A stretch of DNA of 60,111 nucleotides from a virus: positions 1 through 60,111 of the IMG/VR virus record IMGVR_UViG_3300013126_000034. One strand, 5' to 3'. This document shows, piece after piece, positions 5,985 through 59,207 of the stretch. A program made the position numbers and the translations under genes. Numbering within the stretch: position 1 is the stretch's first letter; the number at the start of each line of letters is the position of its first letter. Below the pieces are notes generated by a model that was not told the origin of the DNA, made no database searches, and worked only from the letters and a program-made list of their open reading frames with translations.

Positions 5985-6230
5985 TTATTCTGGTGAAGCA
6001 GTGAGGCTGATCATCTCCTGCAATGCAAGCTCGTATCCGGCCTGCACATCCGCCTCGGCTATGCGCCGGTCTGGATCAAAGGGCCCATCCGGCCTGATGG
6101 TGGATACACTCGGGCGCATCCAGAACATCCGCTGGAGGAAAATCTGCCCGGAGGGAGTGTTAAGGAACTGCCGCAGCGCGGCGGCTTGGTCGGAGGACCA
6201 AGTGGGGGTCTCGGTTGGAATCTTAAACAT
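5985..6230 (-). CDS. Small protein between portal and scaffold
   Basis: An 81-residue protein from ATG 6230 (MFKIPTETPTW). This start overlaps the last 8 bases of the portal gene, and the next gene starts 2 bases past its stop, so it sits tightly in the head operon. Sequence is mixed helical (SSDQAAALRQFLN) with a central aromatic/Met patch and no recognisable motif. Position suggests a minor head or assembly protein. Function unknown. Confidence 0.6.
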   Translation of the reverse strand: MFKIPTETPTWSSDQAAALRQFLNTPSGQIFLQRMFWMRPSVSTIRPDGPFDPDRRIAEADVQAGYELALQEMISLTASPE

Positions 6231-8384: not shown

Positions 8385-8394
8385 AGCTTACGAC
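8385..8394 (-). promoter_or_regulatory. Candidate late promoter motif, portal gene
   Basis: Minus strand reads GTCGTAAGCT, 20 nt before the portal ATG. The last base overlaps the stop codon region of the preceding small basic gene. Confidence 0.5.
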
Positions 8395-14564: not shown

Positions 14565-15005
14565 TCATGAGACTGCGGGACTACTCCCCTGCCCTGCCGG
14601 AGTGGGGGAGGGCGGCGCGTGAGTTCTTTCAGCGAGGTCCGAACTGGGTGAGGCCAACTCGCTAAGAGCCTCGACAGCGGTCGCCAAATTTGTATTGACG
14701 CCAGCATTACCCGGAGTACGGGTGCGGTACTCGTCGGGAGAAACTTTCCCGTACCCGAAACGTGCGGCGTATTCACGAAGTCGTTGCACCGACTCCAGCG
14801 TCGGCACACGACGACCGCTGATCCAAAGCGAGGGCAAGTCCTCGTCCATGTAACCGTCGAGGTACTGCATCCGCTTTTTCCAACCCACACCCTGCGTGCG
14901 GTTCATCCACGCGACGATCTCGCGCACCTCATCGCGGCGACGCATGGCCTCGACGCGAAAATCAGTTTTGAGTCGTCGAAGCCGGTACGTCTTTTTCGCC
15001 ACCAT
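14565..15005 (-). CDS. Protein between probable TerS and TerL
   Basis: A 146-residue basic protein. I start at ATG 15005 (MVAKKTYRLRRLK) because an AAGGAGG precedes it by about 9 nt; it overlaps the previous gene by 44 bases. Residues 1-35 are strongly basic and suit nucleic acid binding, residues 60-75 read WISGRRVPTLESVQRLREYA, like a short helix-turn-helix, and the C-terminus is Ser/Pro-rich and probably disordered. It could be a packaging accessory protein or the DNA-recognition partner of the small terminase. Confidence 0.6.
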   Translation of the reverse strand: MVAKKTYRLRRLKTDFRVEAMRRRDEVREIVAWMNRTQGVGWKKRMQYLDGYMDEDLPSLWISGRRVPTLESVQRLREYAARFGYGKVSPDEYRTRTPGNAGVNTNLATAVEALSELASPSSDLAERTHAPPSPTPAGQGSSPAVS

Positions 15006-15663
15006 CGATATTCGCCTCCTTCGCTCGCTGCGCTTTGCGTGCACGCTTCTCTTCCTCGGCGTGCTCCTGCATCTCGGTGAGTGCGCTGATGACCGAGCGC
15101 ACGCTGAGGACGCTCGCTGCGCCGGTGCCTCGGTCGTTGGAATTAACGGTCTCTGCGGCGGTAGGAATTTTGTCGCCGAGAGCCCGATACGACATGTTCT
15201 GGACCGTTTCCAACGCCTTGGCCAGATCGAGCACGGCCTTCGGATTTACATCGATCCGCTCGACTGCACCGTCCGCAGCGAACTTGAACTTCACCAGTTG
15301 ACGCAGCAACTCCTCGGGGTCGGAAAGAAGTCGTAATGCGTCCTCCAATACATCGCGCATGCGCTGGGCCTGCAGGTAGTTCACCGCACGGTTAGCCACG
15401 CGCTCGGCGTCGCTCTCGCCCGCACCGGTCTTCAGACGCTTCAACTTGGCGACCCAGTTGAAGTCGTGCTCCAGAGCCACAAGGGCGGACAGCGGCACCT
15501 TGGAAGCGATGGCGGTCTTTTCGAGGTCACCCGAGAATGCAGCGTAGCACATCCACGCTCGGGCCTGATCGACCGACTCTAACGAAACCTTGGGCCGACG
15601 AGGAGCCGGACCTTCAGAGGGATCTTCGATCCACGTCGTCAGGGGGTTGGGGGTGTCGTCCAT
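14962..15663 (-). CDS. Probable terminase small subunit
   Basis: A 233-residue protein, first gene of the packaging/head block. Residues 33-65 (ARAWMCYAAFSGDLEKTAIAS onward) resemble an N-terminal helix-turn-helix of the kind used by small terminases to bind the packaging site. The central part (about 90-160) is helical and heptad-rich, suiting an oligomeric ring, and the C-terminus is basic and disordered. Position upstream of terL supports the call, but no diagnostic motif exists. A degenerate copy of the late motif (ACCGTACACT, 15680-15671) ends 7 nt before its ATG. Confidence 0.55.
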   Translation of the reverse strand: MDDTPNPLTTWIEDPSEGPAPRRPKVSLESVDQARAWMCYAAFSGDLEKTAIASKVPLSALVALEHDFNWVAKLKRLKTGAGESDAERVANRAVNYLQAQRMRDVLEDALRLLSDPEELLRQLVKFKFAADGAVERIDVNPKAVLDLAKALETVQNMSYRALGDKIPTAAETVNSNDRGTGAASVLSVRSVISALTEMQEHAEEEKRARKAQRAKEANIDGGEKDVPASTTQN

Positions 15664-16158
15664 GTGCAGCAGTGTACGGTATGCGTTTCGGCAATGCCAG
15701 AAAGAATCGCGTTTACGGGCCGAGGGGCGAAAAAGCCCACCGACCTACGGACCCACCGTCCCAAAGGCCGTAAAGCCCGCAGGACGAACCGCAGTGGGGC
15801 GGCGGGGCGCAGGGTACAATCCCGCACGAATACCCCTCTAACTCACCGGGAACCTTGTGGCCATAACCTTGTGACAATCCATTACTTACATATATACTAT
15901 TTATTATAATTAAAATAAAAAAGAAATAGAAAAGTCTGGGGGACCGACATCGGCTCCAGAGAGTTTCGGACCCAACCGCCGCCGCCAGCCCCTCTTCCCC
16001 AAAAGTCATTGCTAAAGCTCATATCATCCGTTTTTCCGTAAAGCCCAGACGTTTAACATCGGATTTCTGAAAAGATCATTCAACGCTCGCTCGGAATTCT
16101 TCAAAAGATCGAAAAAACCCACTGGACACGCAAACGATTCGACCTACCCCTCGTATCC
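15664..16158. promoter_or_regulatory. Divergent intergenic region with AT-rich core
   Basis: This 495-bp region separates the leftward late block from the rightward early block and holds no supported gene. Its core (about 15875-15935) is extremely AT-rich. On the plus strand TTGTGA (15870-15875) and TATACT are about 18 bp apart, like a sigma-70 promoter, and ATTATAAT just downstream is self-complementary and could be a -10 box on either strand. AACCTTGTG is repeated at 15851-15859 and 15865-15873. Early promoters for the plus-strand genes are the simplest reading; an origin of replication is possible. Confidence 0.55.
15671..15680 (-). promoter_or_regulatory. Degenerate late-motif copy, probable terS
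   Basis: Minus strand reads ACCGTACACT, 7 of 10 matches to GTCGTATACT, 7 nt before the ATG at 15663. The spacing fits the other copies, the sequence match alone would not. Confidence 0.3.
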
Positions 16159-17884: not shown

Positions 17885-18106
17885 ATGACCAATGACGAAC
17901 TGATCAACGCGCTGAAGCACGTCGCCGACGATCACCCCTGTTGCGCGGGCGCACTCCTCGAAGCAGCTGATCGTCTGAAGACCCTCGATTCGTTCGAGCT
18001 CGCGACGCGCTGGCAGTGCGTGTGCGGTGGCACCGACTGCGACGGCCAGCGCGAGAACGCCGTGCTCATTCAGCTTGTTCGAAATCTCATCAACCGTGGC
18101 CGCTGA
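17885..18106 (+). CDS. Small protein with CGGTDC motif
   Basis: A 73-residue protein from ATG 17885 (MTNDELINALK). It ends with WQCVCGGTDCDGQRENAVL, matching the C-terminal module of the preceding gene at 14 of 19 positions. The upstream part has HPCCAGALLEAADRL. It appears to be a shortened paralogue keeping the Cys module. It overlaps the next gene's GTG start by 11 bases. Confidence 0.6.
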   Translation: MTNDELINALKHVADDHPCCAGALLEAADRLKTLDSFELATRWQCVCGGTDCDGQRENAVLIQLVRNLINRGR

Positions 18107-18623
18107 CCTTCCAGTTCACCAATACGTCAACATAGACGCCGGTGCGATTTCCGACGGCCCGCAGCACGGCGTCTGGTTCGCCGTGCAGTGCAACGTAGGC
18201 GGCGTGTACGGTGGTCACGTCCTGCTCGACAACGGAGCCCTGTATCGAAACATCCCGCTGCACCACCTCTCGCACCCGCAGGCCCACAACCCGCCGTCCC
18301 ACAAGGCCGCCGACCTGCAACTCTGGGACTGCTATTCCGAAAAGTGCGAGGTGGTGGAGTACGACTACCTCAGAGGATTGCAGGTGCGTCTGTCCGGTTG
18401 GAAGACGGGGGCTTATCTGGCGACCATCATTCCCGCCGAGGACGCGTTCTCACGGCACCCGGAGCAGGCCAAAGAATTTGTAGTGGCGTGGATGGATACA
18501 GGTCGGCTGGTCATTCGGGCGACGAACGAGATCATGTTTTCCGACTGCTCGTTCATGAAACCGGACGCGAGCCCCTTGGGCCTCTACCGGCAGACCGTCA
18601 TTCCGTCCGTCGAGCGGCCCTGA
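18096..18623 (+). CDS. Protein of unknown function
   Basis: A 175-residue protein from GTG 18096. It has a mixed beta-rich pattern with many aromatic and His residues (HGVWFAVQCNVGGVYGGHVLL, split region about 25-45; HHLSHPQAHNPPSH about 53-66), and DCYSEKCEVVEYDY later. The His-rich loop might bind a metal. It is the last gene of the 16.2-18.6 kb operon, and a stable stem-loop follows the stop. I do not recognise the family. Confidence 0.6.
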   Translation: MAADLPVHQYVNIDAGAISDGPQHGVWFAVQCNVGGVYGGHVLLDNGALYRNIPLHHLSHPQAHNPPSHKAADLQLWDCYSEKCEVVEYDYLRGLQVRLSGWKTGAYLATIIPAEDAFSRHPEQAKEFVVAWMDTGRLVIRATNEIMFSDCSFMKPDASPLGLYRQTVIPSVERP

Positions 18624-19180: not shown

Positions 19181-19405
19181 TTACCTGAGCGCGGCAGCGG
19201 CCTCGTCGTCGGTCAGGATGACGTCCCGACCGAGGTCGAGGTACGCGTGGCGACCGAGGCGGAAATTGTGGCAGTAGAGGTATCGGCGCCCGCGGGCGAC
19301 GAACGGGGTCTCGGTGCCGCCGCAGGCGGGCACCCAGCGATCCGCGCAGGCAGCGCGGGCGGCGTTGTATTCGATCTGGGAGGGGGTGAGGGTTTCAGTG
19401 GTCAT
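19181..19405 (-). CDS. Small protein with CGGTETPF motif
   Basis: A 74-residue protein. ACGGTETPFVARGRRYLYC, then HNFRLGRHAYLD, resembles a small conserved family seen on phages and plasmids, from memory and without a known function. It begins after CAACTCCTCACTCCC, a leader also found before the next gene upstream. Confidence 0.55.
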   Translation of the reverse strand: MTTETLTPSQIEYNAARAACADRWVPACGGTETPFVARGRRYLYCHNFRLGRHAYLDLGRDVILTDDEAAAALR

Positions 19406-19431
19406 GGGAGTGAGGAGTTGGGTGCTGCGGG

Positions 19432-19629
19432 TTAGCTGACCATAGCCCAGCCGGAGCCCAGCAGGTGCTGCTGGAAACCGAGGATCAGCGCGGTCCAGCG
19501 GCCTTTCGGCGTGCGGACGACGAGGTGACGTATCTTGGTGATTTCTGCGGCCTGCATGGCCTTGGCGAGGTTGGCTTCAGTGGCGTAGCTCTTAATGTAG
19601 GGGCTGTCGAGGTCGATGGCGGTGGTCAT
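19432..19629 (-). CDS. Small early protein
   Basis: A 65-residue protein from ATG 19629. The segment EANLAKAMQAAEITKIRHLVV then RTPKGRWTALILG looks like a helix followed by a beta hairpin, typical of small phage proteins of the RTPxGRWTA kind. The leader CAACTCCTCACTCAC directly before the ATG is shared with the 19405 gene. A 31-bp conserved element lies about 48 bases upstream. Confidence 0.55.
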   Translation of the reverse strand: MTTAIDLDSPYIKSYATEANLAKAMQAAEITKIRHLVVRTPKGRWTALILGFQQHLLGSGWAMVS

Positions 19630-19676
19630 GTGAGTGAGGAGTTGAGTGTTACGGACAGAGCAAAAGGCCCCTCGTG

Positions 19677-19707
19677 AATTATTGCAAGCACTATTTTCGA
19701 AAATCTT
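19677..19707 (-). promoter_or_regulatory. Conserved upstream element, copy A
   Basis: The plus-strand core TTGCAAGCACTATTTTC recurs at 21964-21994; over 31 bp the copies differ at only four positions. Each lies 48-67 bases upstream of a leftward early gene. A promoter or activator site for these genes is likely. Confidence 0.55.
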
Positions 19708-19825
19708 TTGGGGGCATTTGGACGCCGTCCAACTGGACAGTTGGACGCGGTATTTCGGTCCATCTTGCGAAATCCGGTTTACTAGAACCAAACGCATCCA
19801 AGCTTGCGTTTAGTCGCGCGAAACG

Positions 19826-21612: not shown

Positions 21613-21654
21613 GTTAGTAGTAGTGCTTTTTTGGTTTATGGTTTCAGACGGAAA

Positions 21655-21897
21655 TTAAACCAGCGGGCCCAGCGTAGAGCGACTCTGGTGGTAGACACGC
21701 GCTGCGACGCGCCACGCGGCTCTCGCGGTCTCGGCGTTGCGGTCATAAGTCTGGACGACTCCGCGAGACACGCGGGCTACATAGTCGTCGCCCCGGTAGA
21801 GACTGACGCCGCCGTCCTCGACGACGGGCGTGTAGTCTGGGGCGAGACGCATGGCGGTGGCTAGGCTGCGGTGCTGTGAGGTGGTGAGGGTGTTCAT
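21655..21897 (-). CDS. Small early protein
   Basis: An 80-residue protein from ATG 21897, first gene of the leftward early operon. VEDGGVSLYRGDDYVARVSR suggests a small beta sheet, followed by an Arg/Ala helix (ETARAAWRVAARVYH). Function unknown. A conserved 31-bp element lies 67 bases upstream. Confidence 0.5.
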   Translation of the reverse strand: MNTLTTSQHRSLATAMRLAPDYTPVVEDGGVSLYRGDDYVARVSRGVVQTYDRNAETARAAWRVAARVYHQSRSTLGPLV

Positions 21898-22117
21898 GGG
21901 AGTGTGGTGGTGGTGGTGGGAGCGAGTAGTAGGTTGACGAGACAGAGTGGAGCAGAACCCAATAATTGTTGCAAGCACTATTTTCAAAAAACTTCAGAAA
22001 TTTTCCGATCTGGAAAACACAGTATACCAACGACTTACGAAACACTCTCTGTAGTGAAAGATGGATACCAACGAAAAAGGCGTGCTCCGCTGCGGCCCGC
22101 GTGCAGGGTAAACCGCA
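21898..22117. promoter_or_regulatory. Divergent early control region
   Basis: This 220-bp gap separates leftward and rightward early genes. It contains the second copy of the conserved element (21964-21994), a dyad TTTTCC-GATCT-GGAAAA (22001-22017), and the direct repeat ATACCAACGA (22024-22033 and 22065-22074). The ribbon-helix-helix protein encoded just to the right is a good candidate to bind the dyad. Confidence 0.5.
21964..21994 (-). promoter_or_regulatory. Conserved upstream element, copy B
   Basis: Second copy of the element at 19677-19707. On the minus strand it contains TTTTTTGAAAATAG, and TTGAAA would pass as a -35 box, but no good -10 is found at standard spacing. Confidence 0.5.
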
Positions 22118-23446: not shown

Positions 23447-24163
23447 ATGAACCTGCTCCACATGACACCCGCAGAATTCTGCCGCGTTACCAACGCCTGC
23501 GAAAAAGGCCGCGACTTCGCGCTCCAACACGCGTCGATGGCCGACGTGTGGGATAAGTGCCCACGCGCTGACTGGCTGATTTGGATCGCACGTGCTCTTG
23601 GCGAGCGACCAGACGACCGCACGCTGCGGCTTTTTGCGGTGTGGAGCGCCCGCCACACGCCGTTGGGCGACGGGCGGGTAACAGGTGACCTTCTCACCGA
23701 TCCTCGCTTGCAGGCTGCGCTGGAGGTGGCCGAGCGTTACGCGCATGGGCAGGCCACGACGGAGGAGTTGGCTGCTGCGAGGGCTGCTGCGTGGGTTGCT
23801 GCGGATGCCGCGCGGGCTGCTGCGGGGGCGGCTGCGTGGGATGCTGCGGGGGCTGCTGCGGATGCTGCGTGGGCTGCTGCGGCGGCTGCGGCGGCTGCTA
23901 CGGCGTTCGAAGATCCGGAGCATGCGGCCCGAAGGGCGTGGGATGCTGCGGGGGCTGCTGCGGATGCTGCGTGGGCTGCTGCGGCGGCTGCGGCGGCTGC
24001 TACGGCTGCTGCGGATGCTGCGGCGGCTGCTACGGCTGCTGCGGATGCTGCGTGGGCTGCTGCGGCGGTTGCGGCGGCTGCTACGGCTGCTGCGCGGGCT
24101 GCTGCGGGGGCTGCTCAAGCCGACCAACTCCGGCGCATGGTGCCTAACCCGTTTCGCCCATGA
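23447..24163 (+). CDS. Protein with long alanine-rich repeat tail
   Basis: A 238-residue protein from ATG 23447 after a strong AAAGGAGG. The N-terminal 90 residues (MTPAEFCRVTNACEKGRDFAL, in part; SMADVWDKCPRADWLIWIAR) form a conserved-looking domain I have seen in phages without a known function. Residues 105-225 are nearly all Ala with regular Trp, Asp and Thr (AADAAWAAAA, AATAAA). The DNA here is an imperfect array of about 60-bp units (for example 23845-23905 and 23943-24003), which leaves all three forward frames open. The next gene starts within its stop (ATGA). Confidence 0.7.
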   Translation: MNLLHMTPAEFCRVTNACEKGRDFALQHASMADVWDKCPRADWLIWIARALGERPDDRTLRLFAVWSARHTPLGDGRVTGDLLTDPRLQAALEVAERYAHGQATTEELAAARAAAWVAADAARAAAGAAAWDAAGAAADAAWAAAAAAAAATAFEDPEHAARRAWDAAGAAADAAWAAAAAAAAATAAADAAAAATAAADAAWAAAAVAAAATAAARAAAGAAQADQLRRMVPNPFRP

Positions 24164-25940: not shown

Positions 25941-26171
25941 ATGTACATCGTGAACCGAAAGCTGTTCGAGCAGAAAGTCGTCACCGACTCGAAGCTTGCG
26001 TACCTGCTGATCCGGGCCATCGAGCACCCGTGCTCGTCGGATCAGTATCCCACGCACGAGATGACCGAACTCCGCGAGCATCTCGTCACTCTCCGACTCG
26101 CCGACCGAGTTGGCGCGACGGGTGGACCCGAACCTGAAAAAATCGAAGATAATGACTCAGACAACTACTGA
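25941..26171 (+). CDS. Small early protein
   Basis: A 76-residue protein. Its last 20 bases overlap the start of the next gene. Amphipathic helices (SKLAYLLIRAIEH, MTELREHLVTLRLAD) and an acidic end. Function unknown. Confidence 0.5.
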   Translation: MYIVNRKLFEQKVVTDSKLAYLLIRAIEHPCSSDQYPTHEMTELREHLVTLRLADRVGATGGPEPEKIEDNDSDNY

Positions 26172-27345
26172 ACGCGGCCACCATCCCGACAGCCCGTCAT
26201 CGCTGCAGAGTTCCGCCCAATGCGCGTTTTTCACGAACGCCAAGCGCGACTCAGCGGCCTCTATCGCGGGGACGCTCCAGCACAAGGCCGCGGAGACCCG
26301 GGACCTTTCGACTCTCGACGATGAGGCTCAGGTCGCTGCCGTCCAGCGGGCCATCGCGCTTGAGGACGACGTGATCAAGAACCTGAAGGACTACGGGCTC
26401 GACGTGGAAGTGATCCGCGAGCAGTACCTCGCCGTCGCTCCGGACGAGTCCACCGCTGGTTGGGAGGGCATCACGGGCGGGTACCCAGACACACTCATCA
26501 TCGGTCGCGGTGAGCAGGGTACGCTCGCGGCGATTCTCGACTGGAAGTTCGGCCAGCACCTCGTGACGCCGACCTCGGAGAACCTGCAGGGCATCGCGTA
26601 CGCGCTCGCTGTCATGCAGCGTTGGCCCGAGGTGCTCGAAGTGATGGTCGTGTTCTTCCATCCGCGCATCGAGGTTGCCAAGCGTCTTGAGGAGTACACG
26701 CACGTGTTCAGCCGGGACAACATGCCGACGATGGAGCTGGTCATTCGTCTCGTCGTCGAACGCAAGCGCAAGGCCAAGGCCGACGGCTGGGACGGCGAGA
26801 TCAAGCCGAACCCGTCGTCCAACCTCTGCATCTGGTGCGCCAACCTCGCGACTTGCCCGGCGGTGACCCAGCTGGCGACAGTCACCTCGAAGAAATACGA
26901 GTCGCTCGCGGTGCCCGCCGAGGTGCGTCCCGCGTACCTCTCGAACCCCGAGGACATGCGTCGCGTGCATCAGCTCGCCGGCGTCCTCGAAAAGTTCTGC
27001 AAGACCGTAAAGGCCCGCATTCGCGACGCCGTCCTCACCGAGGGCGTGGAGGTGCCGGGCATGCGGCTGGTCACCAAGGCCGATCGCGAGGTCGTGTCCG
27101 TCAGCGCCGTGCGCGATGTCGCTTTCGAACACGGTCTGAGCGTGGAGGATTTTGAGGCTTGTCTGTCACTGCCCTTGACGAAAGTGGAGGACGCCGTCAA
27201 AAAGGTAGCTTCCAAAGGGAAAGGTGCCGCCGCGCTTCGTGAATTCCGGTCCGCACTGGACGACGTGGGCGCGGTGAAAAAAGGCAACCCCTACACCTAC
27301 CTAACGGAGGACAAGTCCTCGGCGGACGACGCCGTGGATAGCTAA
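26152..27345 (+). CDS. RecB-like PD-(D/E)XK exonuclease with Cys cluster
   Basis: A 397-residue protein from ATG 26152. The nuclease core is GYPDTLII (Asp near 107) followed by LAAILDWKFGQH (Asp-X-Lys near 124-126), then a QGIAYALAV helix. Cys residues SAQCAFF near 24 and CIWCANLATCPA near 219-229 give the Cys-Cx2C-x5-C arrangement of AddB/Cas4-type 4Fe-4S nucleases. It probably trims DNA ends for recombination or host DNA breakdown. The last nine codons fall in the first copy of a 32-bp repeat. Confidence 0.8.
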   Translation: MTQTTTERGHHPDSPSSLQSSAQCAFFTNAKRDSAASIAGTLQHKAAETRDLSTLDDEAQVAAVQRAIALEDDVIKNLKDYGLDVEVIREQYLAVAPDESTAGWEGITGGYPDTLIIGRGEQGTLAAILDWKFGQHLVTPTSENLQGIAYALAVMQRWPEVLEVMVVFFHPRIEVAKRLEEYTHVFSRDNMPTMELVIRLVVERKRKAKADGWDGEIKPNPSSNLCIWCANLATCPAVTQLATVTSKKYESLAVPAEVRPAYLSNPEDMRRVHQLAGVLEKFCKTVKARIRDAVLTEGVEVPGMRLVTKADREVVSVSAVRDVAFEHGLSVEDFEACLSLPLTKVEDAVKKVASKGKGAAALREFRSALDDVGAVKKGNPYTYLTEDKSSADDAVDS

Positions 27346-27414
27346 AACCTTCGGCGGACGACGCCGTGGATGGCTAAAACCTTCGGCGGACGACGCCGTG
27401 CATATCCAAAACTT
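27319..27414. repeat. Three-copy 32-bp tandem repeat
   Basis: Copies at 27319-27350, 27351-27382 and 27383-27414 begin TCGGCGGACGACGCCGTG. Each contains the dyad CGGCG-GACGA-CGCCG. Copy 1 encodes the end and stop of the exonuclease; copies 2 and 3 fill most of the gap before the next gene. A related shorter hairpin follows (CGGCAGCATCCCGCTGCTCG). Confidence 0.85.
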
Positions 27415-27460
27415 TCGGCAGCATCCCGCTGCTCGATACAAAACCCAAACACGCACTAAC

Positions 27461-28270: not shown

Positions 28271-30277
28271 GTGGAACGTATCGTCGCTCTCGATACCGAG
28301 CTGTACTACGACAAGCACGTAAGCGTTAAACCGCTCGGCACTTGGCGGTACACTCGGCACCCCAAGGCCGAATGCTACCTGATTTCGGTCAGCGACGGTA
28401 CGGATCATTGGGCCGGGCACCCTCGGGACTTTAACTTTGCAAATCTGGAGGGTGCCTCCATAATTTCACACAACGCCGGATTCGACGAGGAGGTGTACCT
28501 CGCTCAGTCGCAGAAAGGCTTGTGGCCGAAGATCAACTACAAGACGTGGCACTGCACCGCGGACCTGTCCGCCTACATTTGCAACCGTCGCAGCCTCGCG
28601 GACGCGATCTTTTACGCGTTCGGCGAGAGCGTCTCCAAAGACATGCGAAACTATATGTGCGGCAAATCTTGGGCCGACGCGCAGCAGGAGGGCAAGTCCG
28701 AGCAACTCCTGCAGTACGCCCGCGACGACGCGATGCACTGCTGGCGGCTGTGGGACAGGTGGAGCGGGCAGTGGCCCGAGTGGGAGCGTGACCTTTCAGT
28801 CCTAACCCGCAGGCAGGGCCGCGCTGGCGTCTACATTCACGAGGGGCGTCTTCGCGAGGGCATCACGACCCTAGAACGCGTCGTCCTGTCGTGTATCGAC
28901 CGTCTGCCGTGGGTCGCGAGCGGCCATCCGGCAGCGAGCCCCAAGGCCATCGCTCAGGCATGCCGCGACGCTGGCCTGCCCCCGCCGCCGATCAAGGCCC
29001 ACGACGCGGACGCCGCGGAGGCGTGGGAAGAGGAACACGGGCACCTGACGCCGTGGCTCAAGGCTCTGAAAGACCTGCGGAAGGCGAAGAAGATGCTCGC
29101 CACGTTCAAAACCATGCAGCAGCGGCTGCGTGAGGACGGGACGATGGGCTTTTCGCTGAAGTATTTCGGCGCACACACCGGTCGCTGGGCGGGCGAGGCC
29201 GGTCTGAATTTCCAGAATTTCAACCGCATGCCGATGTTCGTGGATGCGCAGCATCGGCTGATCGACGACCCGCAGGAGTTTGCCAAGCACTTTGCCGTCT
29301 TCAAGGACAACCCGGACGCCGTGGAGGTGCCCGTGATCGATGTCCGCGGGCTCATCGTCGCGCCGCCCGGCAAGCAGATCGCCTCGGTGGACCTCTCGCA
29401 GATCGAGCCCCGAGTCCTCAACTACGTCGTCGGCAACGAGGCCCTGCTGCAGTCGATCCGTGACGGCTTCCCGATTTACGAGGCGCACGCACGCAGCTCG
29501 ATGGGCTGGAAGGGCGGCAAGCTCAAGAAGGAAAACGAAAGGCTCTACTCGCTCGCGAAGGCCCGCGTATTGGGCCTTGGATACGGCTGCGGGTGGTCGA
29601 AGTTCATCACCGTGGCCCAGCTCATGGCCGGGATCGACCTCACCGAGGGCGACCGGGAAGCCGCTCTCGCGTTATCGGTTGACGGCAAAGTCTACGAGCA
29701 GGACGAGAAGGGCGGCCCGTGCGAACCGTTTGTCTACACGTCCGATGTACGCGGGGGACGCGTGAAGATGGCCGTGTACGGAGCGAACTCCCGCGCCGTC
29801 GTGGCCGATTTCCGCAAGGCGAACCCACTCGTCACGGGCCTCTGGCGGAGCCTGCAGAACGCGCTGGAGGAGTCGGTAGGCAAGCATTTGGAGCTGGAGC
29901 TGCCCTCGGGCCGCAAGCTGTCGTACCGGTCCGTGACGGCGGAGCAGAAGACCTCCACCGATCCCGAGACCGGCGAGCCGTTCCAGAAGACGGTCTTGAG
30001 GGCGTCCGTGGACGGCATCCGGACGACCTTCTACGGTGGGCTCCTCGCCGAGAATCTCGTGCAGGCCGTTTCCCGGGACGTTTTTTCCGTCAACATGCTG
30101 GCCCTCGACCGAGCCGGTATCCGGGTCCTCTGGTCCGTGCATGACGAGGCGGTGTGCCTCGTATCTGATCCGGAGGAGGCCGAGAAGGCCCGCCGGATCA
30201 TGGCCTCCACCCCAGAGTGGCTGGCTGGATGCCCGGTGGACGCCGAAGTTTCTATCAGCGATCGCTTCAAGAAATAA
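28271..30277 (+). CDS. DNA polymerase family A with 3'-5' exonuclease
   Basis: A 668-residue T7-like replicative polymerase from GTG 28271. Exonuclease motifs: LDTEL (Asp8, Glu10), SHNAGFDEE near 67-75, and YARDDAMH near 149-156. Polymerase motifs: motif A SVDLSQIEPR (Asp374), motif B ERLYSLAKARVLGLGYG (about 423-439), motif C VHDEA (His624-Asp625-Glu626). All catalytic acids are present, so both activities are expected. No thioredoxin-binding insertion was identified. It lies in a replication operon with the primase/helicase-like protein. Confidence 0.93.
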   Translation: MERIVALDTELYYDKHVSVKPLGTWRYTRHPKAECYLISVSDGTDHWAGHPRDFNFANLEGASIISHNAGFDEEVYLAQSQKGLWPKINYKTWHCTADLSAYICNRRSLADAIFYAFGESVSKDMRNYMCGKSWADAQQEGKSEQLLQYARDDAMHCWRLWDRWSGQWPEWERDLSVLTRRQGRAGVYIHEGRLREGITTLERVVLSCIDRLPWVASGHPAASPKAIAQACRDAGLPPPPIKAHDADAAEAWEEEHGHLTPWLKALKDLRKAKKMLATFKTMQQRLREDGTMGFSLKYFGAHTGRWAGEAGLNFQNFNRMPMFVDAQHRLIDDPQEFAKHFAVFKDNPDAVEVPVIDVRGLIVAPPGKQIASVDLSQIEPRVLNYVVGNEALLQSIRDGFPIYEAHARSSMGWKGGKLKKENERLYSLAKARVLGLGYGCGWSKFITVAQLMAGIDLTEGDREAALALSVDGKVYEQDEKGGPCEPFVYTSDVRGGRVKMAVYGANSRAVVADFRKANPLVTGLWRSLQNALEESVGKHLELELPSGRKLSYRSVTAEQKTSTDPETGEPFQKTVLRASVDGIRTTFYGGLLAENLVQAVSRDVFSVNMLALDRAGIRVLWSVHDEAVCLVSDPEEAEKARRIMASTPEWLAGCPVDAEVSISDRFKK

Positions 30278-30309: not shown

Positions 30310-32532
30310 ATGAATCCGGTAGTGACATTGGCCCTGCCTTGCCTTCCGAACCTGATCTCCACCGCGGTGGAGCAGGTTTGCCCGTGGACGTTCCGCGGGA
30401 CGATCCCGCCCGCCGTGCGCGGTCCCTCGGGCAAGAAGGCGCGGACACAGTGGATGCAGGACGCGAGCACGCGGCACAACGCGTTCAGCGGCTGGGAGGG
30501 GCTCACCCCGTCCCTACGACTTTCCGACTCGGCGACCGACGGCAATCCGCCCTACGCGCTTAAAGCCATCGTGGGCGATTACGAGTCCACCGTGAGCCCA
30601 GAAGACCTGCAGGCTGGCATCAAGCGCATCGGCGAGTGTTTCGCCCCGACGTGGCAGGAGCGTTCACTTTCTGGATACAGCCACTTTGTGTGGGTGCTGG
30701 AGAAGCCGCTGCTCGTACCCAATCGTGCGTTTGCCGTGGCCCTGCTGGAATTCATTCTCAAGGAGACGAAGTTCCAGTACCTCGCCGTGGGTCTGGATAC
30801 GCCAGCCTTCACGACGCCGGAGCGGTACTACACGAATTCTTGCGAGTGGGCTCAGGTCAGCGACAACGTGCTCCCGTCCGCGCTCGTGTCCGGGTGGGCG
30901 ATGAGAGTCGCGGAGAAGTTTTCCTTCAAGCAGGTCGGCACGACCAAGATTCCCCTCGAAACGGTCTGGGCCGAGCTGCAGAAGAAGTACCCGGGCGTCG
31001 AGTGGCAGGGCGATTTCGTCGCTGGGTCGCAGGGTCCGTCGTTTTTCATTCAAGGGTCCACGAGCCCGAAGTCGGCCATCGTCAAGGAGGACGGCATCTA
31101 CACGTTCTCCGCGCACGCCACGAAGCCGTGGTGGTCGTGGCGCGATCTTCTTGGGTCCAACTTCGTGGACAACTTCCAGACGCGTGCCCTCGGCGCGGCG
31201 GTGGAAGGCATGTACCACGACGGTCAAAATTATTGGCGTCCAACGGGCCGCGGGAAGTGGCGTGCGTATTCGAAAGAGGACACCGCCCAGCACCTGCGCC
31301 TCTGCAAGGGCCTCAACTCGCAGGCGGGCAGAAACGAGCCGTCCGAAGTGGACCGTGCGCTGGAACACGTCCGCCACTGGGGCGACATCGTCGGTGCCGC
31401 GCCGTTCGCCTTTCGTCCGACAGGCATTATTGAGTTGGACGGTGGCGACCGAATTTTGAACACCTACACGCGGCGTGTAGTCATGCCCCACGATCAGCCC
31501 GTGCAGTGGGGGCCCAACGGCCAATTCCCGTTCATATCGGAGTACGTCGGCGGCATGCTGGACCCCATCGAGCAGCTCGACTCCCTGCTCTCGTGGCTGC
31601 GCCGATTCTACATTGGCGCGATGAACCTGAGCCTCGATAGTGGGCAGAACATCTTCATCGTTGGTCCGGTTGGCACCGGCAAGACGCTCTTCTCCACGAA
31701 GCTCTTGGCCAAGCTCATGGCTGGTCACGCGCCCGCGGAGAACTACCTCCTCGGGAAGACTGACTTCAACGCGCAGCTCTTCGAGCACGCGCTCTGGACG
31801 GTGGACGATACCTCGGCGAACGACGACGCGAATGCGCACAAGCGGTTCTCGTCGATCATCAAGCGTATGGCCGCGAACACCACTTTCGAGTACCACGCGA
31901 AGTTCCGCCAACCCGTAAACGTCTCGTGGCAGGGCCGCGTGGTCGTGACGGCCAACTCCGACGAGGACTCGATCCGTATCCTCCCCGACCTCGACATCTC
32001 GATCCTCGACAAGATCATGATCTTCAAGGCGGCAAGCCGGATGATGAAGTTCGCGTCAAACCGCGAGGTGGAAGCGACTATCGACCGTGAGATGCCGTTC
32101 TTCGCTCGGTTCCTCGTGGACTATCACGTGCCCGACCACTGCAAGGGCAGCAGCCGATTCGGCGTTGTCTCCTACCACGAGAAGTCGCTCGTCCGCACGG
32201 CGCAGCTCACCTCACGCCTCAACTCGTTCCACGAAATTCTGGAGGACTGGAAGAGCGACTACTTTCTCGAGCACCGCGAGCCGTGGTGTGGTACGGCGCA
32301 TCAGTTTTTTGTCGAACTTCATCGCGATCCGGCGAAGTCAGCGGCTCTCCGCGGGCTCACGCTGGACCGGGTGGTGATGCAGCTCTCCGCGATGAAGCGG
32401 AAGGGTTTCCCAGTCGAACACGACGACGGGATGGGTGCGCTGCGGCGGTGGACAATACGTCCTCCGGACGCCAAGCGTGCGGTAACGGCGAGTGCGAACT
32501 CGCTAAAGTATGACGCAAGAGGAGCTCGATAA
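30310..32532 (+). CDS. Primase/SF3-like helicase (DUF5906-type)
   Basis: A 740-residue protein from ATG 30310. The N-terminal part (about 1-330) resembles a primase-like region without a zinc ribbon that I can see (SGYSHFVWVLE, ERYYTNSCEWAQV). The C-terminal part is an AAA+/SF3 ATPase: Walker A GPVGTGKT at 452-459, Walker B TVDD (Asp499, Asp500), sensor-1-like VVVTANSDED with Asn549. This matches phage D5/DUF5906-type primase-helicases that unwind the fork ahead of the polymerase. Its last 23 bases overlap the sigma factor gene. Confidence 0.8.
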   Translation: MNPVVTLALPCLPNLISTAVEQVCPWTFRGTIPPAVRGPSGKKARTQWMQDASTRHNAFSGWEGLTPSLRLSDSATDGNPPYALKAIVGDYESTVSPEDLQAGIKRIGECFAPTWQERSLSGYSHFVWVLEKPLLVPNRAFAVALLEFILKETKFQYLAVGLDTPAFTTPERYYTNSCEWAQVSDNVLPSALVSGWAMRVAEKFSFKQVGTTKIPLETVWAELQKKYPGVEWQGDFVAGSQGPSFFIQGSTSPKSAIVKEDGIYTFSAHATKPWWSWRDLLGSNFVDNFQTRALGAAVEGMYHDGQNYWRPTGRGKWRAYSKEDTAQHLRLCKGLNSQAGRNEPSEVDRALEHVRHWGDIVGAAPFAFRPTGIIELDGGDRILNTYTRRVVMPHDQPVQWGPNGQFPFISEYVGGMLDPIEQLDSLLSWLRRFYIGAMNLSLDSGQNIFIVGPVGTGKTLFSTKLLAKLMAGHAPAENYLLGKTDFNAQLFEHALWTVDDTSANDDANAHKRFSSIIKRMAANTTFEYHAKFRQPVNVSWQGRVVVTANSDEDSIRILPDLDISILDKIMIFKAASRMMKFASNREVEATIDREMPFFARFLVDYHVPDHCKGSSRFGVVSYHEKSLVRTAQLTSRLNSFHEILEDWKSDYFLEHREPWCGTAHQFFVELHRDPAKSAALRGLTLDRVVMQLSAMKRKGFPVEHDDGMGALRRWTIRPPDAKRAVTASANSLKYDARGAR

Positions 32533-33214
32533 TCTGCACCGACGTTTTCGTTGGTTTCGTCGCCGAGACGACGGGGACAAGCTCCTCAAGCACCACCACG
32601 GCTTTGCCGTCCAGATCGCCCGCCGTTACGCGAGCCCACACCTCTCCCACGATGAGGCCACCGCAGCCGCCCTGCGTGGCCTGTACGAGGCCCTAAAGCG
32701 GTACGAACCGAAGCAGGGCGCGTTTACCACGTTCGCCTACTGGTGGATTTTAAAGGCCCTGCTGCACGAGCGGACGTTCGCGAAGAATGTCGTCAAGCTC
32801 CCGGTGGCCGTGGTCCGCCACAGCCGGAAAATTCAGAAGCTCATGGCCGAGGGCGTGCCAGACGAGGATATCGCCCGCGAGCTGACGCTCACGGTGGAGC
32901 ATGTGAGGGCGTACGCCGAGGTGCACCTCCAGCCTACGGGCAGCGGCCTCGTGACTCAGGACGGCGAGCAGGTGGACGTGCCCGCGGCGGACGACGTGCA
33001 CGAAAACGCCGAACGTGACTCCATGAAGGAGGAACTCGACCGGGCGATCAGCCGACTGAGTGAGCGTGCCCAGTACATCGTGCGGGGACGCCTGCAGAAT
33101 GAACCGAAGACCTTCACGGAGCTTGCTCGGCGGTACAACATCAGCCGCCCGCGGGCCATCCTGATCTACGAGAAGTCGGTCAAGACCATCAAATTCTTTT
33201 TCCGTAAACAATGA
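32510..33214 (+). CDS. Phage sigma-70 family transcription factor
   Basis: A 234-residue protein with all main sigma regions. Region 2 (about 24-88): LLKHHHGFAVQIARRYASPH, then LRGLYEALKRYEPKQGAF (core-binding helix) and FAYWWILKALLHE (the aromatic -10 melting helix). Region 3 about 96-140 (KLPVAVVRHSRKIQKLM). Region 4 about 176-230: ISRLSERAQYIVRGRL and an HTH TFTELARRYNISRPRAILIYE. It would redirect host RNA polymerase to phage promoters. It is the last replication-operon gene before the late block, fitting a middle-to-late switch, and the motif GTCGTAWRCT upstream of virion genes is its likely target. Confidence 0.88.
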   Translation: MTQEELDNLHRRFRWFRRRDDGDKLLKHHHGFAVQIARRYASPHLSHDEATAAALRGLYEALKRYEPKQGAFTTFAYWWILKALLHERTFAKNVVKLPVAVVRHSRKIQKLMAEGVPDEDIARELTLTVEHVRAYAEVHLQPTGSGLVTQDGEQVDVPAADDVHENAERDSMKEELDRAISRLSERAQYIVRGRLQNEPKTFTELARRYNISRPRAILIYEKSVKTIKFFFRKQ

Positions 33215-33567
33215 AGGCGTGGACCGAAGCCTTCGTTCTCTCTCGTATCCGCTCTGTTTTGCGCCGGCTGTCGATGCAGATGCCGTCGATCCGGGAGTGC
33301 AAGCTCGCCGTTCGTCGCCCTTACACCGGAACAAACCCGAGGCTCAAATGGAAGTACCCATGCGCTCACTGCGGCGGATGGTTTTCGGAGAAAGAAACGC
33401 ACGTTGACCACATCGTGCCGGCCGGTAGTCTGAAGTCGTTCGAGGACGTGGGTCCATTCTCCCGACGGCTCTTGTTCCCGACGTCCGATCAACTTCAAAT
33501 TCTGTGCAAACGGTGCCACAAGATCAAGACGCTCGCCGAACGGAAGGCTTCACGACGTAAGCTCTGA
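33211..33567 (+). CDS. HNH endonuclease
   Basis: A 118-residue protein, ATGA-coupled to the sigma gene. CAHC (about 51-54), then HVDHIVPAG (about 64-72), then CKRCHKIKT near 99-107 give the Cys4-HNH zinc finger with catalytic DH and the final His. Such small HNH proteins cut phage or host DNA or aid packaging; homing activity is also possible. Confidence 0.85.
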   Translation: MKAWTEAFVLSRIRSVLRRLSMQMPSIRECKLAVRRPYTGTNPRLKWKYPCAHCGGWFSEKETHVDHIVPAGSLKSFEDVGPFSRRLLFPTSDQLQILCKRCHKIKTLAERKASRRKL

Positions 33568-33568
33568 C

Positions 33569-34186
33569 ATGCTAAAGACCCCTGACTCGCCAGAGACCCC
33601 ACAGGGCCGCATGCGGGGCGTGTTCCACAGCCTTCCGCACGTCGAGAAGACGGCGGCGCAGGTCGCGATCCTCCGTGGCATTGTCGAGGCCGCAGCGGGC
33701 TTCCTGACGCCCCAGAGGAGCCCTTTTGGGGGCAACGAGGAGAGCGTGGACATCGACCCGGAGGTCAAGGAGGCGGCGAAGCGGACGCTCATCTTTACTT
33801 TTCACCAGCTCGACAACCTCGTGGACGAGACGGTGCGGTGGACGATCAACGACACCGAGACGGAGGCCGCGGCGAAGAGGCTCCTGAAGACCGAGGCGGA
33901 CCAAGTGGAGGCGAACACTGTGCTCAAGAAGATGTTCGCCCAGCCTTTTTACGCGATGCGGGCGACGCTCCACCGGTCCTCGACGGGCCGGGTGCTGGCC
34001 GTGGACCCGAACAACGTCCTGCAGGGGTGGGGCGACACGCCCAAAGCGGCCATCGACGATTTCAACCGGGCGTTCGAGGAGTTCGACGGCATCGGCGACA
34101 CGAAGCCCGTGGACCCGGAGCCCAACGACCCACAGCCCGAGGCCCCAAAGAAGCGGAGCCGTCGGGCCAAGAAGCTGGAGGACTAA
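33569..34186 (+). CDS. Protein of unknown function at end of rightward operon
   Basis: A 205-residue protein. Helical N-terminal two thirds (VKEAAKRTLIFTFHQLDNLV, EAAAKRLLKTEADQVEANTV), then a small domain with RATLHRSSTGRVLAVDPNN and GWGDTPKAAIDDFNRAF, which resembles a HicB-like fold, and a basic Pro-rich end. Its last 4 bases overlap the end of the convergent late gene, with no terminator between. Confidence 0.55.
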   Translation: MLKTPDSPETPQGRMRGVFHSLPHVEKTAAQVAILRGIVEAAAGFLTPQRSPFGGNEESVDIDPEVKEAAKRTLIFTFHQLDNLVDETVRWTINDTETEAAAKRLLKTEADQVEANTVLKKMFAQPFYAMRATLHRSSTGRVLAVDPNNVLQGWGDTPKAAIDDFNRAFEEFDGIGDTKPVDPEPNDPQPEAPKKRSRRAKKLED

Positions 34187-34719: not shown

Positions 34720-34722
34720 AAA

Positions 34723-34986
34723 TCAAAGAGAGTTACAAAATAGATTACGACGCCACTGTTTGTGATGGCCGTAGATTCCTCGGGAAACGCGACTCATGCA
34801 GGTTGAATTTAATCCGTGTTGGCCACAAAAATCACTCAATGAAGACGTTGAAATCGCAATCCCTTCAGGTGAAATAAAAAAGTAGGTTTTTGCTCTACGG
34901 CGGTTTGAATCGGCGATTCGTTTTGACCGGGCCTCCTTCGTTAAGGTTGACGGACGGTAACGTTTTTGCGAGGCCCAGTCCCCCAT
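34723..34986 (-). pseudogene. C-terminal fragment of GIY-YIG homing endonuclease
   Basis: An 87-codon open stretch overlapping the GIY-YIG gene by 46 bases in another frame. FISPEGIAISTSSLSDFCGQ and HGLNSTCMSRVSRG match the NUMOD1/IENR-like DNA-binding module that ends many GIY-YIG homing enzymes, and HHKQWRR ends it. Together with the upstream frame it would make one full-length enzyme, so a frameshift has most likely split the gene. Codon use is AT-richer than in neighbours. Confidence 0.6.
34742..34751 (-). promoter_or_regulatory. Candidate late promoter motif, 34719 gene
   Basis: Minus strand GTCGTAATCT, 22 nt before the ATG at 34719. It overlaps the 3' end of the homing endonuclease fragment. 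Confidence 0.45.
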
Positions 34987-35396
34987 CGAGCTGAGATCAT
35001 CTTTTCTCGAGATGCTGAATCAGCCCAACGCGCTTTTAACTTTTCCGAGATAAATTTTTTCCACGAGTCTGTTTTAAGATGTGGATTTCCTTTGGTACGC
35101 GGTCCGGCTCCTCCAGACAACATGTTGTAACCCGTCGCAATCGTGTCGAAGAACTGGATGAAATGAGCCTCCAGTTTATTCGCGGCTTCGGGAGACGTGG
35201 CAGCGCAAAGCTGCTCAATGACAAAAAAGTCTTCTCCGTATTTGCGTATCGCTCTAGCTAATCCTCGCCGTTTACAGATTTGTCGAGAGTTGTAGCAATG
35301 CTGCCGAAAGCGAACGTGTAGCGGATGTTTAGTCTGCCCAACGTATCGTTTTTCGTTGATCGTATTGGTTACGCAATACAGATAGATTACTTGCAT
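34941..35396 (-). CDS. GIY-YIG homing endonuclease, N-terminal part
   Basis: A 151-residue product from ATG 35396, which lies inside the last codons of the DUF6321-like gene. VIYLYCVTN and EKRYVGQTKHP at about 3-26 are the GIY-YIG core variant (YLY/YVG), with Arg in RFRQHCY and Glu in NKLEAHFIQ as catalytic residues. A NUMOD3-like basic stretch follows (WKKFISEKLKARW). The frame ends early; the DNA-binding end is in another frame (34723-34986). The GC content is lower than in flanking genes, as in recently acquired homing elements. Confidence 0.75.
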   Translation of the reverse strand: MQVIYLYCVTNTINEKRYVGQTKHPLHVRFRQHCYNSRQICKRRGLARAIRKYGEDFFVIEQLCAATSPEAANKLEAHFIQFFDTIATGYNMLSGGAGPRTKGNPHLKTDSWKKFISEKLKARWADSASREKMISARWGTGPRKNVTVRQP

Positions 35397-35644
35397 TGCC
35401 ACTGGCGTCTGGACCACCAGTTCGCCGACAGCTTGTTCGAGGTGTTGCCCTGACCCGCCGAGCGGGCGCAGTAGTTGGACTTGCGTCCGGGGATGTGCTT
35501 CTTGATGGAGAGTTTCGGGTCACCGAAACGGACCAGCTTCACGCTGTCGCCCTGCTTCGCGAGCACGGCGAATTTCTTGCCCTCGCCGGGCGTGCGCTTG
35601 GGCTTGTTGTATCCGGAAAAACGTTCTCCGCGGTATTCGATCAT
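35387..35644 (-). CDS. DUF6321-like small protein
   Basis: An 85-residue basic protein. GYNKPKRTPGEGKKFAVLAK, then VRFGDPKLSIKKHIPGR and a C-terminal WWSRRQWQCK match, from memory, the DUF6321-type family of phage virion-region proteins. It probably is a minor virion or DNA-binding protein. A late-motif copy ends 11 nt before its ATG. Confidence 0.65.
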   Translation of the reverse strand: MIEYRGERFSGYNKPKRTPGEGKKFAVLAKQGDSVKLVRFGDPKLSIKKHIPGRKSNYCARSAGQGNTSNKLSANWWSRRQWQCK

Positions 35645-35655
35645 GACGGTAGGTG

Positions 35656-35665
35656 AGTATACGAC
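35656..35665 (-). promoter_or_regulatory. Candidate late promoter motif, 35644 gene
   Basis: Minus strand GTCGTATACT, 11 nt before the ATG at 35644; it starts in the TAG stop codon of the lysozyme gene. Confidence 0.55.
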
Positions 35666-45547: not shown

Positions 45548-46510
45548 TTAGAGTTTCCGAACGAGGATGAATTCAGCAGTCGAGTTCGCTGCGGAGACTT
45601 CGACGTTACCCGAGTTGGTACCGTCTTCGAGCGAAAGAGCAATCTCCACGATATCGCCCGTGCCGAGCTGAACAAACGCGTTGACTTGCGGGTACCAGCG
45701 TGCGCCCGGGGGCGACGAAATCGCCATGCCGGATGCTTGGTAGTTGCCCGAGTTCTTCAAGACGGTCAGCAGCATCTCCATGTTCGCCGCGACGCCCGTG
45801 TTGTTGTCCACCTGAAGCTCGGCACGTACCTGATAGACGCCGTTAACGGGTGCCACGAAGCGGCTGTTGGCCGCGTCATACGCTGAATCAGGGTCAAGGT
45901 TGACCGTGTTGAACAGCAGTTTGGTATTCGTGGCGAGATTCGAAATCGGAACGGTCTGATTAACCGCCAGAGACGCCGCGATCGGATAGTTCACGCGCAC
46001 GGCATCCACAGCAGTGGAAATCGCCGTGTTCATCTGCGTGGTCGTCGAGTAGTTCGTCGTGATGTTCGTGAACTGGGTCTGGATGCCCGCGAACGTGTCC
46101 TCGAAGATGCTCTTCCACGCGCCGGAAGAGTAGTGCTTGATGTCGATGGCCTTCCCGGCACCGTTCAGTTCGATCCAGAAGCTGTAGTTGACCGGATTCG
46201 GGGCCAAGGACGATACCGCGTAACGGAGCGACGGGTACTGGGTGCCGCCGCTCGTGTCGATGACCGACGGCGAGACCACCGGGATGTAGGTCGCCAGAAC
46301 GTCGTCCCAGACCCACAGTTCTTTCCCGTCCTTGAACCACGGCCCGAGGTTGCTCGTCGGCTGCGCGGCCCCCACCGTGAACGACGACCACGGGACGGAC
46401 GGGGCGATGATCAGGCGTGCGGCAAACTCCTGCAGCAGGCCCTGCGGGTCGGTATCCAGACCCTCAGGAAGGGCTCCGGCTGAGACATCGAATGTAACGG
46501 GGTTTGGCAC
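45548..46510 (-). CDS. Fibre-like protein with C1q-like C-terminal domain
   Basis: A 320-residue protein from GTG 46510; a late-motif copy ends 9 nt upstream. The N-terminal half (PSVPWSSFTVGAAQP, FKDGKELWVWDD) looks like an anchoring domain. Residues 185-320 have the beta-sandwich pattern of C1q/TNF-like heads (LLFNTVNLDPDSAYDAANSR, FVAPVNGVYQVRAEL, then AFVQLGTGDIVEIALSL). Trimeric C1q heads end several phage fibres and bind receptors. Confidence 0.65.
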   Translation of the reverse strand: MPNPVTFDVSAGALPEGLDTDPQGLLQEFAARLIIAPSVPWSSFTVGAAQPTSNLGPWFKDGKELWVWDDVLATYIPVVSPSVIDTSGGTQYPSLRYAVSSLAPNPVNYSFWIELNGAGKAIDIKHYSSGAWKSIFEDTFAGIQTQFTNITTNYSTTTQMNTAISTAVDAVRVNYPIAASLAVNQTVPISNLATNTKLLFNTVNLDPDSAYDAANSRFVAPVNGVYQVRAELQVDNNTGVAANMEMLLTVLKNSGNYQASGMAISSPPGARWYPQVNAFVQLGTGDIVEIALSLEDGTNSGNVEVSAANSTAEFILVRKL

Positions 46511-46519
46511 GGTGATGAT

Positions 46520-46529
46520 AGTTTACGAC
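46520..46529 (-). promoter_or_regulatory. Candidate late promoter motif, C1q-like gene
   Basis: Minus strand GTCGTAAACT, 9 nt before the GTG at 46510; it begins in the TAG stop codon of the 47-residue gene. Confidence 0.55.
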
Positions 46530-54344: not shown

Positions 54345-54354
54345 AGTATACGAC
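54345..54354 (-). promoter_or_regulatory. Candidate late promoter motif, tailspike gene
   Basis: Minus strand GTCGTATACT, 11 nt before the ATG at 54333; it begins in the TAG stop codon of the GT2 gene. Confidence 0.55.
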
Positions 54355-58750: not shown

Positions 58751-58760
58751 AGTTTACGAC
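58751..58760 (-). promoter_or_regulatory. Candidate late promoter motif, collagen-like fibre gene
   Basis: Minus strand GTCGTAAACT, 9 nt before the ATG at 58741 and next to the TGA stop of the upstream gene. Confidence 0.55.
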
Positions 58761-59207
58761 TCAGACGGGCTTGACGGGCCAGACTACGTTGGTCGGAAAG
58801 CCGGGCTGCTGCGGGATGTCGCGGAGGGCTTGGCGGTGGGGCGCCCACGCGGCGCTGGTCGCGTCGGGGATGTCCTTGCCCTGCGTCCAGTCCGTGTCGG
58901 CGAGCTTCTTGTTGCGCTCGCTGCGGACCTGACTCGCTTTCTGGGCGTTGTTCTCGGCCACCTCCTCGGCGGTGTACTTGCGCCACTGCTTAGTCTCGAT
59001 GACCTCGGTGGGAGTGATCGTGAACGTGCTGCCGACAAACTTCTCGTCCACGGCACCCTCCTCCAAACGCACGGAGAGCCAGCCGAGCGATTGGAGGCCG
59101 GACGCGTCCATCAGATTCAGTCCGGAGACGTTGCGCCACGAACGCGGAAGGCCGCGAGGACCTTCGACAATGGCGTTGTTTTCAACGAGGCAGTAGTTCA
59201 TGCTCAT
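58761..59207 (-). CDS. Tail fibre assembly chaperone-like protein 2
   Basis: A 148-residue protein. The end RSERNKKLADTDWTQGKDI, then HRQALRDIPQQPGFPTNVVWP matches the Phage_tail_APC consensus closely and is paralogous to the 56294-56641 protein. Residues 1-90 (NYCLVENNAIVEGPRGLPRS) resemble the N-terminal part of such chaperones. The GT9-like gene upstream overlaps its start by 26 bases; the true start may be the third codon (ATG 59201), 6 nt past a late-motif copy. Confidence 0.8.
   Translation of the reverse strand: MSMNYCLVENNAIVEGPRGLPRSWRNVSGLNLMDASGLQSLGWLSVRLEEGAVDEKFVGSTFTITPTEVIETKQWRKYTAEEVAENNAQKASQVRSERNKKLADTDWTQGKDIPDATSAAWAPHRQALRDIPQQPGFPTNVVWPVKPV

Follow-up and report, generated by a model that had tools for sequence, protein, structure and literature searches.

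In SPO1-type cascades, phage sigma factors (gp28 and gp34) drive the later gene classes from promoters that have both -35 and -10 elements. The late promoters of phage T4, TATAAATA, have a -10 element only; they are read by the phage sigma factor gp55, which acts with the co-activator gp33 and the sliding clamp gp45. The role of gp55 is also described in PMC5780444. For gp36 of phage phiEco32, the middle and late promoters consist of a single element, tAATGTAtA, with start sites 6-8 bp downstream (PMC8948821).

The locus described here lies in 60,111 nucleotides of viral DNA (IMG/VR record IMGVR_UViG_3300013126_000034, positions 1 to 60,111), referred to as the window. It encodes a sigma-70-family factor and carries a short box ahead of genes of late type. 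We consider it likely that this factor is a late sigma that diverts the host RNA polymerase to late promoters made of a single element, in a manner resembling gp36 of phiEco32. Such a switch is of a known viral kind, here in a phage group without a cultured relative. Annotated phages gave no match to the capsid candidate, the primase/helicase or a 713-residue protein, no relative of the capsid was detectable among 50,697 annotated phage records, and the DNA polymerase has annotated-phage matches of only about 30%. Alignments of the capsid with GTDB genomes gave first no match and then a single one, to a 26.5-kb contig under a Peribacteraceae MAG, too weak for naming a host.

The sigma factor and its gene neighbourhood

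The reading frame at 32510-33214(+) starts with ATG, is open throughout and encodes 234 amino acids; its product is, almost beyond doubt, a sigma-70-family factor. Region 2 is matched by PF04542 at residues 25-86 (E 3.9e-11) and region 4 by PF04545 at residues 179-215 (E 2e-6), both above the Pfam curated cut-offs. Region 3 has no separate Pfam match, and the alignment with solved chains runs through region 3.0-3.2. The earlier note had proposed a complete factor with regions 2, 3 and 4, to be checked by profile search and structure prediction; the profiles bear this out for regions 2 and 4, and the full-length alignment is compatible with a region 3 between them. Solved SigA, RpoS and RpoH chains in the PDB match residues 6-228 from end to end, the best being SigA1 (residues 6-228, 8e-16), and the match improves to 3.8e-21 with a profile of four sigma sequences. 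The AlphaFold model is of moderate quality (pLDDT 64); with it, the best PDB match found by Foldseek is sigma-32, over 248 columns, the other top matches are also sigma factors, and the helices of the region 4 helix-turn-helix (202-208 and 213-230) are present. The best phage family match is PHROG 351 (phage RNA polymerase sigma factor, E 1.6e-26), yet the closest annotated phage sigma record is only 27.5% identical, with none nearer. The gene is under purifying selection (dN/dS 0.14). The factor is ordinary in kind, and it is real.

Orthologues in related IMG/VR contigs are 85, 43 and 33% identical; the 85% orthologue comes from one contig, and further contigs were obtained with a 623-residue late protein and the DNA polymerase as queries. 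The sigma factor evolves faster than its neighbours, with 43% identity in contig G003 versus 71-72% for the polymerase and primase. Identities of the window protein to its G003 and G004 counterparts are 74 and 59% in region 2.3-2.4, 55 and 55% in region 3.0, and 32 and 19% in region 4. Invariant FTTF..WW..K spans residues 72-82 and includes the melting aromatics Phe72, Phe75, Trp78 and Trp79, all kept; region 3.0 runs from Pro98 to Lys107, a linker occupies residues 141-165, and region 4 comprises residues 166-234, approximately. Lys82 and Arg103 are invariant in all four orthologues compared, and we take them to occupy the positions of RpoD Gln437 and Glu458. At the -35-reading positions of RpoD Glu585 and Arg588, the window protein has Pro and Ile, and the four orthologues disagree. 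By these comparisons, the putative -10-reading region is the most conserved part of the protein and the putative -35-reading region has diverged, which fits a sigma factor that reads the -10 side only. In the alignment with PDB chains, region 2.2 does not retain DLIQEG, the canonical core-binding stretch.

The sigma gene shares an early or replication operon with a Family A DNA polymerase (28271-30277, +). Directly upstream is a DUF5906-type primase/helicase ATPase (30310-32532, +), which overlaps the start of the sigma gene by 23 nt; downstream, an HNH endonuclease gene (33211-33567, +) overlaps its stop codon. This order is kept in relatives, with the sigma gene between primase/helicase and HNH genes in four of four contigs compared (G001, G003, G004 and G005). 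A 205-residue protein (33569-34186, +) with its own late-type box ahead is encoded by the last gene of the cluster. The sigma gene had earlier been placed at the end of the replication operon; with the HNH gene and one further gene downstream of it, it lies near the end instead.

It had also been claimed that the phage has no RNA polymerase gene. This holds for the 60 kb examined, as Pfam scans of nearly all large window proteins gave no match. The contig ends (1-330 and 59182-60111) fall in two different genes, one for a collagen-repeat fibre and one for a protein that ends at 59182; the genome is therefore not closed, and the lack of a polymerase gene is unproven beyond the window. A search with PF00940 gave no match in the window and none in the controls either, leaving its sensitivity unproven. 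Contig G002 spans the end join of the window with a 1233-residue collagen gene.

A conserved box ahead of late-type genes

The earlier note had tied the sigma factor to an unspecified set of motifs, and such a motif was recovered independently by two routes. Aligning the intergenic regions of relatives revealed a conserved box resembling GTCGTATACT. When the 0-40 nt ahead of gene starts were scanned for enriched words without supervision and without a preset motif, CGTANACT came out as the most enriched start-proximal word in the window (full form GTCGTAWACT, where W is A or T). Six of its eight copies in the window are start-proximal, as are 12 of 23 copies pooled over three genomes, where it is again the top word (binomial log10 p -14.7, without multiple-testing correction across words). 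In single genomes, it ranks third by p-value in G003 and falls outside the top list in G004. Exact TATAAT and TTGACA show no excess over the whole window.

Ten directional boxes were chosen by eye among the CGTANNCT hits in the window, a weaker CGTAATCT at 34749 being excluded. Nine are at (-) late genes and one is at the (+) gene downstream of sigma. On the (-) strand, GTCGTATACT at 1229-1238 immediately follows a terminator-like hairpin (1223-1320), lies 6 nt before the ATG of 581-1222 and is kept in G001 and G002. TGCGTATACT at 2711-2720 precedes the capsid candidate (1321-2556) by about 150 nt and is kept in G001, G002, G003, G004 and L030; GTCGTAAGCT at 8385-8394 lies 20 nt before the ATG of 6223-8364 (713 residues; kept in G001-G004), and ACCGTACACT at 15671-15680 lies 7 nt before that of 14962-15663 (kept in G001-G005). 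The only (+) site, GACGTAAGCT at 33554-33563, is 5 nt before the ATG of 33569-34186 and is kept in G001, G003 and G005. The remaining sites are again on the (-) strand. GTCGTATACT at 35656-35665 is 11 nt before the ATG of 35387-35644 (kept in G001, G003 and G005, weaker in G004), and GTCGTAAACT at 46520-46529 is 9 nt before the GTG of 45548-46510 (kept in G003). GTCGTATACT at 54345-54354, kept in G002 and G003, is 11 nt before the ATG of a pectate-lyase-like tailspike gene (52420-54333), and GTCGTAAACT at 58751-58760 is 9 nt before that of a collagen-repeat fibre gene (56645-58741). The last, GTCGTAAGCT at 59208-59217, precedes the tail fibre assembly gene 58761-59207, whose true start is probably the second in-frame ATG, 6 nt from the box.

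A matrix built from the ten window sites was applied to held-out genomes. In G003, it gave seven hits scoring at least 14, versus 0.45 expected from simulated sequence; each of the seven marks a gene start whose orthologue in the window has a site. Five have a called start no more than 60 nt away; of the other two, one is the capsid leader and one a start that the gene caller missed. In G004, there were four hits versus 0.4 expected, of which one had a called start within 60 nt. Over 23 sites, the CG, TA and CT of the box are invariant, and the preceding G-T and the inner A are strong; at the same 23 sites, neither a -35 hexamer nor any second element gave a signal above that of random segments. 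Aligned on the box, genomes are 81% identical within it and about 36% in its flanks, a contrast that is partly circular because the sites were selected by the box.

Start codons mostly follow the box by 5-11 nt (range 5-24 nt), with the capsid gene, at about 150 nt, standing apart. With most boxes so close to a start codon, and few genes having a Shine-Dalgarno sequence, the box might be a signal for translation initiation or another start-proximal function and not a promoter. We regard this as highly improbable: the spacing is too variable, extending to some 150 nt ahead of the capsid gene in each of the five genomes that cover it, the box is found at late-type genes only, and one copy directly follows the terminator-like hairpin at 1223-1320. 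On its variable spacing and its restriction to late genes, a ribosome-binding or similar start-proximal reading was rejected.

The (-) targets comprise capsid, tail-fibre, tailspike, 85-residue and uncharacterised structural-cluster genes, and the late clusters hold tail-fibre assembly proteins, the pectate-lyase-like tailspike, the collagen-repeat fibre and an endolysin. In the window, TANNNT ends 4-12 nt before the start of 8 of 38 late genes versus 1 of 29 others, and in G003 before 4 of 29 versus 0 of 31, 'late' denoting the (-) strand structural clusters as classed by position and content rather than by expression. These counts bear on an alternative to which we give a minor but appreciable chance, namely that the boxes are -10 elements of the host primary sigma factor at leaderless genes (of the TANNNT type, as in Deinococcus), late through replication or another phage activator, while the phage sigma serves elsewhere. 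TATACT and TAAACT obey the sigma-70 -10 rules (T-12, A-11 and T-7), and the spacing from box to start matches that of leaderless-rich hosts, in which the -10 box lies 6-7 bp before start codons (PMC12340547). A candidate early promoter of host-sigma type, GTGACA-16-TATACT at 15871-15898(+), likewise ends in TATACT; it matches the consensus at 10 of 12 positions and is situated in an AT-rich divergent region ahead of the (+) genes from 16159. Against such host -10 elements, conservation extends beyond TANNNT to the upstream GTCG and the invariant inner C. A leaderless TANNNT pattern would place the box before all gene classes, but the early genes, expected users of the host sigma, are without it (1/29 in the window, 0/31 in G003). 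Furthermore, distant relatives without the sigma factor also lack the box ahead of their capsid gene.

This last comparison depends on the capsid candidate, a late-gene product of 411 residues encoded at 1321-2556(-), for which a low-confidence model has N4-type and other phage capsids as best PDB matches (E about 1e-3). It is 88-97% identical in close relatives. In contigs with capsids of 38-52% identity, up to 131 kb long, nothing passes the cut-off for sigma region 2, the sigma-like stretches staying below threshold at Pfam E values of 0.003-0.015, and the late box is absent ahead of the capsid genes; this joint absence concerns one clade only, of which the contigs may be incomplete.

The capsid-gene leader and other features of the window

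The leader of about 150 nt that precedes the capsid gene is conserved in the five genomes covering it, and little other non-coding sequence is conserved. Blocks invariant in six sequences of this leader (2557-2712, -) are GAGC.TAAATTGG, CATCGACCCTAA, GTCCGAGCCG.TGGTCTGGC.AAGGA and GCCGTGCCCAAGC. The leader is possibly a structured RNA. Consensus folding of eight diverse sequences of it gave no useful structure, and Rfam had no match anywhere in the window. In distant relatives (L037, L041, L042, L044, L047, L052, L055 and L057), the capsid leaders have in common a small hairpin whose base pairs covary; a downstream CGGGTGCC could pair with its loop, CACCG, and the two may form a pseudoknot.

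Several repeats were also observed. A 33-bp repeat at 19398-19430 and 19622-19654 spans two start codons and reads CAACTCCTCACTC.CATGACCAC on the (-) strand. Words enriched before starts outside the late class are CTCACTCC in G003 and AAACCNAA over three genomes. AT-rich AAAATAGTGCTTGCAA (- strand) is present in both 19630-19825 and 21613-22117, with one edge base differing, and might be a shared promoter or operator. Three 32-bp tandem copies (27319-27419) lie around the stop codon of 26122-27345, the extra copies being missing in relatives, and tandem 9/12-bp repeats occupy 23713-24129 within 23447-24163. An AT-rich insert at 34720-35386 (GC 46%) is absent from G001, G003 and G005; its translation, read by eye (YVGQTKHPLHVRFRQH), looks like that of a GIY-YIG homing endonuclease. 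A ferredoxin-like protein (PHROG 3704) is encoded at 18096-18623.

Proposed late switch and comparison with known systems

A role of the phage sigma factor as the late switch is well supported at the level of sequence: the motif is found only at late-type genes, its orthologous positions are kept, the -10 module of the protein is conserved, and sigma and motif are jointly absent in distant relatives. Judging from its place in the operon, the factor would be produced alongside the replication genes, and its fold suggests that it binds host core RNA polymerase. The holoenzyme would then be directed to about ten late promoters, each predicted to be a single extended -10 element, GTCGTAWACT, without a -35 element. 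We infer that the phage sigma reads this box, with region 2.3-2.4, together with the beginning of region 3, presumably reading and melting it; region 4, its -35-contact residues not being conserved, probably serves core binding and not -35 reading. Initiation about 7 nt downstream of the box would leave the transcripts of particle, tail-fibre and lysis genes leaderless or nearly so; with the box 5-11 nt before most starts, leaderless late mRNAs are predicted at the usual initiation distance. The capsid gene, with its conserved leader of about 150 nt, would be the exception. We put at about even the chances that region 4 has given up -35 reading and that the single extended -10 box sets a leaderless late transcriptome, in which most mRNAs start at the start codon or within a few bases of it.

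Some observations speak against a sigma-motif regulon: TATACT, or TANNNT, also fits a host primary -10 element, the hits in G004 are fewer and less start-proximal, and DLIQEG is lost. The link between sigma factor and box is indirect, and the cluster encodes several proteins of unknown function, so the sigma could be real but serve middle or host genes, with another phage factor reading the late boxes. This appears improbable, as the box, the one motif built like a promoter, is restricted to late-type genes, the gene ending the sigma operon apart, and the window has no second sigma region-2 match.

With a sigma factor, a promoter consensus and about ten targets, the candidate regulon is complete, for a phage group without a cultured member. 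If true, it adds a case of a sigma factor that bears region 4 and uses promoters without a -35 element, and the joint occurrence of box and sigma among relatives offers an entry point to the origin of new sigma specificities.

As for phage late sigma factors with dedicated promoters, the motif lies at late and not at early genes, and is a single element without -35. The predicted use of a phage sigma for a later gene class is shared with gp28 and gp34 of SPO1; unlike the SPO1 promoters, with their -35 and -10 elements, the late box has no detectable -35. In T4, too, a phage sigma (gp55) reads late promoters that have a -10 element only, as predicted here. Like gp47 of phage 7-11, the window factor is a phage sigma with region 4 that would serve late genes, as gp47 does (PMC8948821), but gp47 promoters are bipartite, GTAAtg-16-aCTA (PMC8948821), and no second element is detectable here. 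The motifs predicted in silico for phage 7-11 (PMC4331800) differ from the consensus later mapped by experiment (PMC8948821), a warning that applies equally to the box predicted here.

By analogy, phiEco32 gp36 is the closest working parallel. It too is a phage sigma that works with host RNA polymerase at single-element promoters without -35, as predicted for the window, and the late cluster of phiEco32 likewise runs opposite to the early and middle cluster (PMC8948821). The box is a different one, and the boxes of the window nearly abut the start codons. Unlike gp36, which has no region 4 homology, the window sigma has a recognisable region 4, which places it outside the gp36 family proper, though it would work like gp36.
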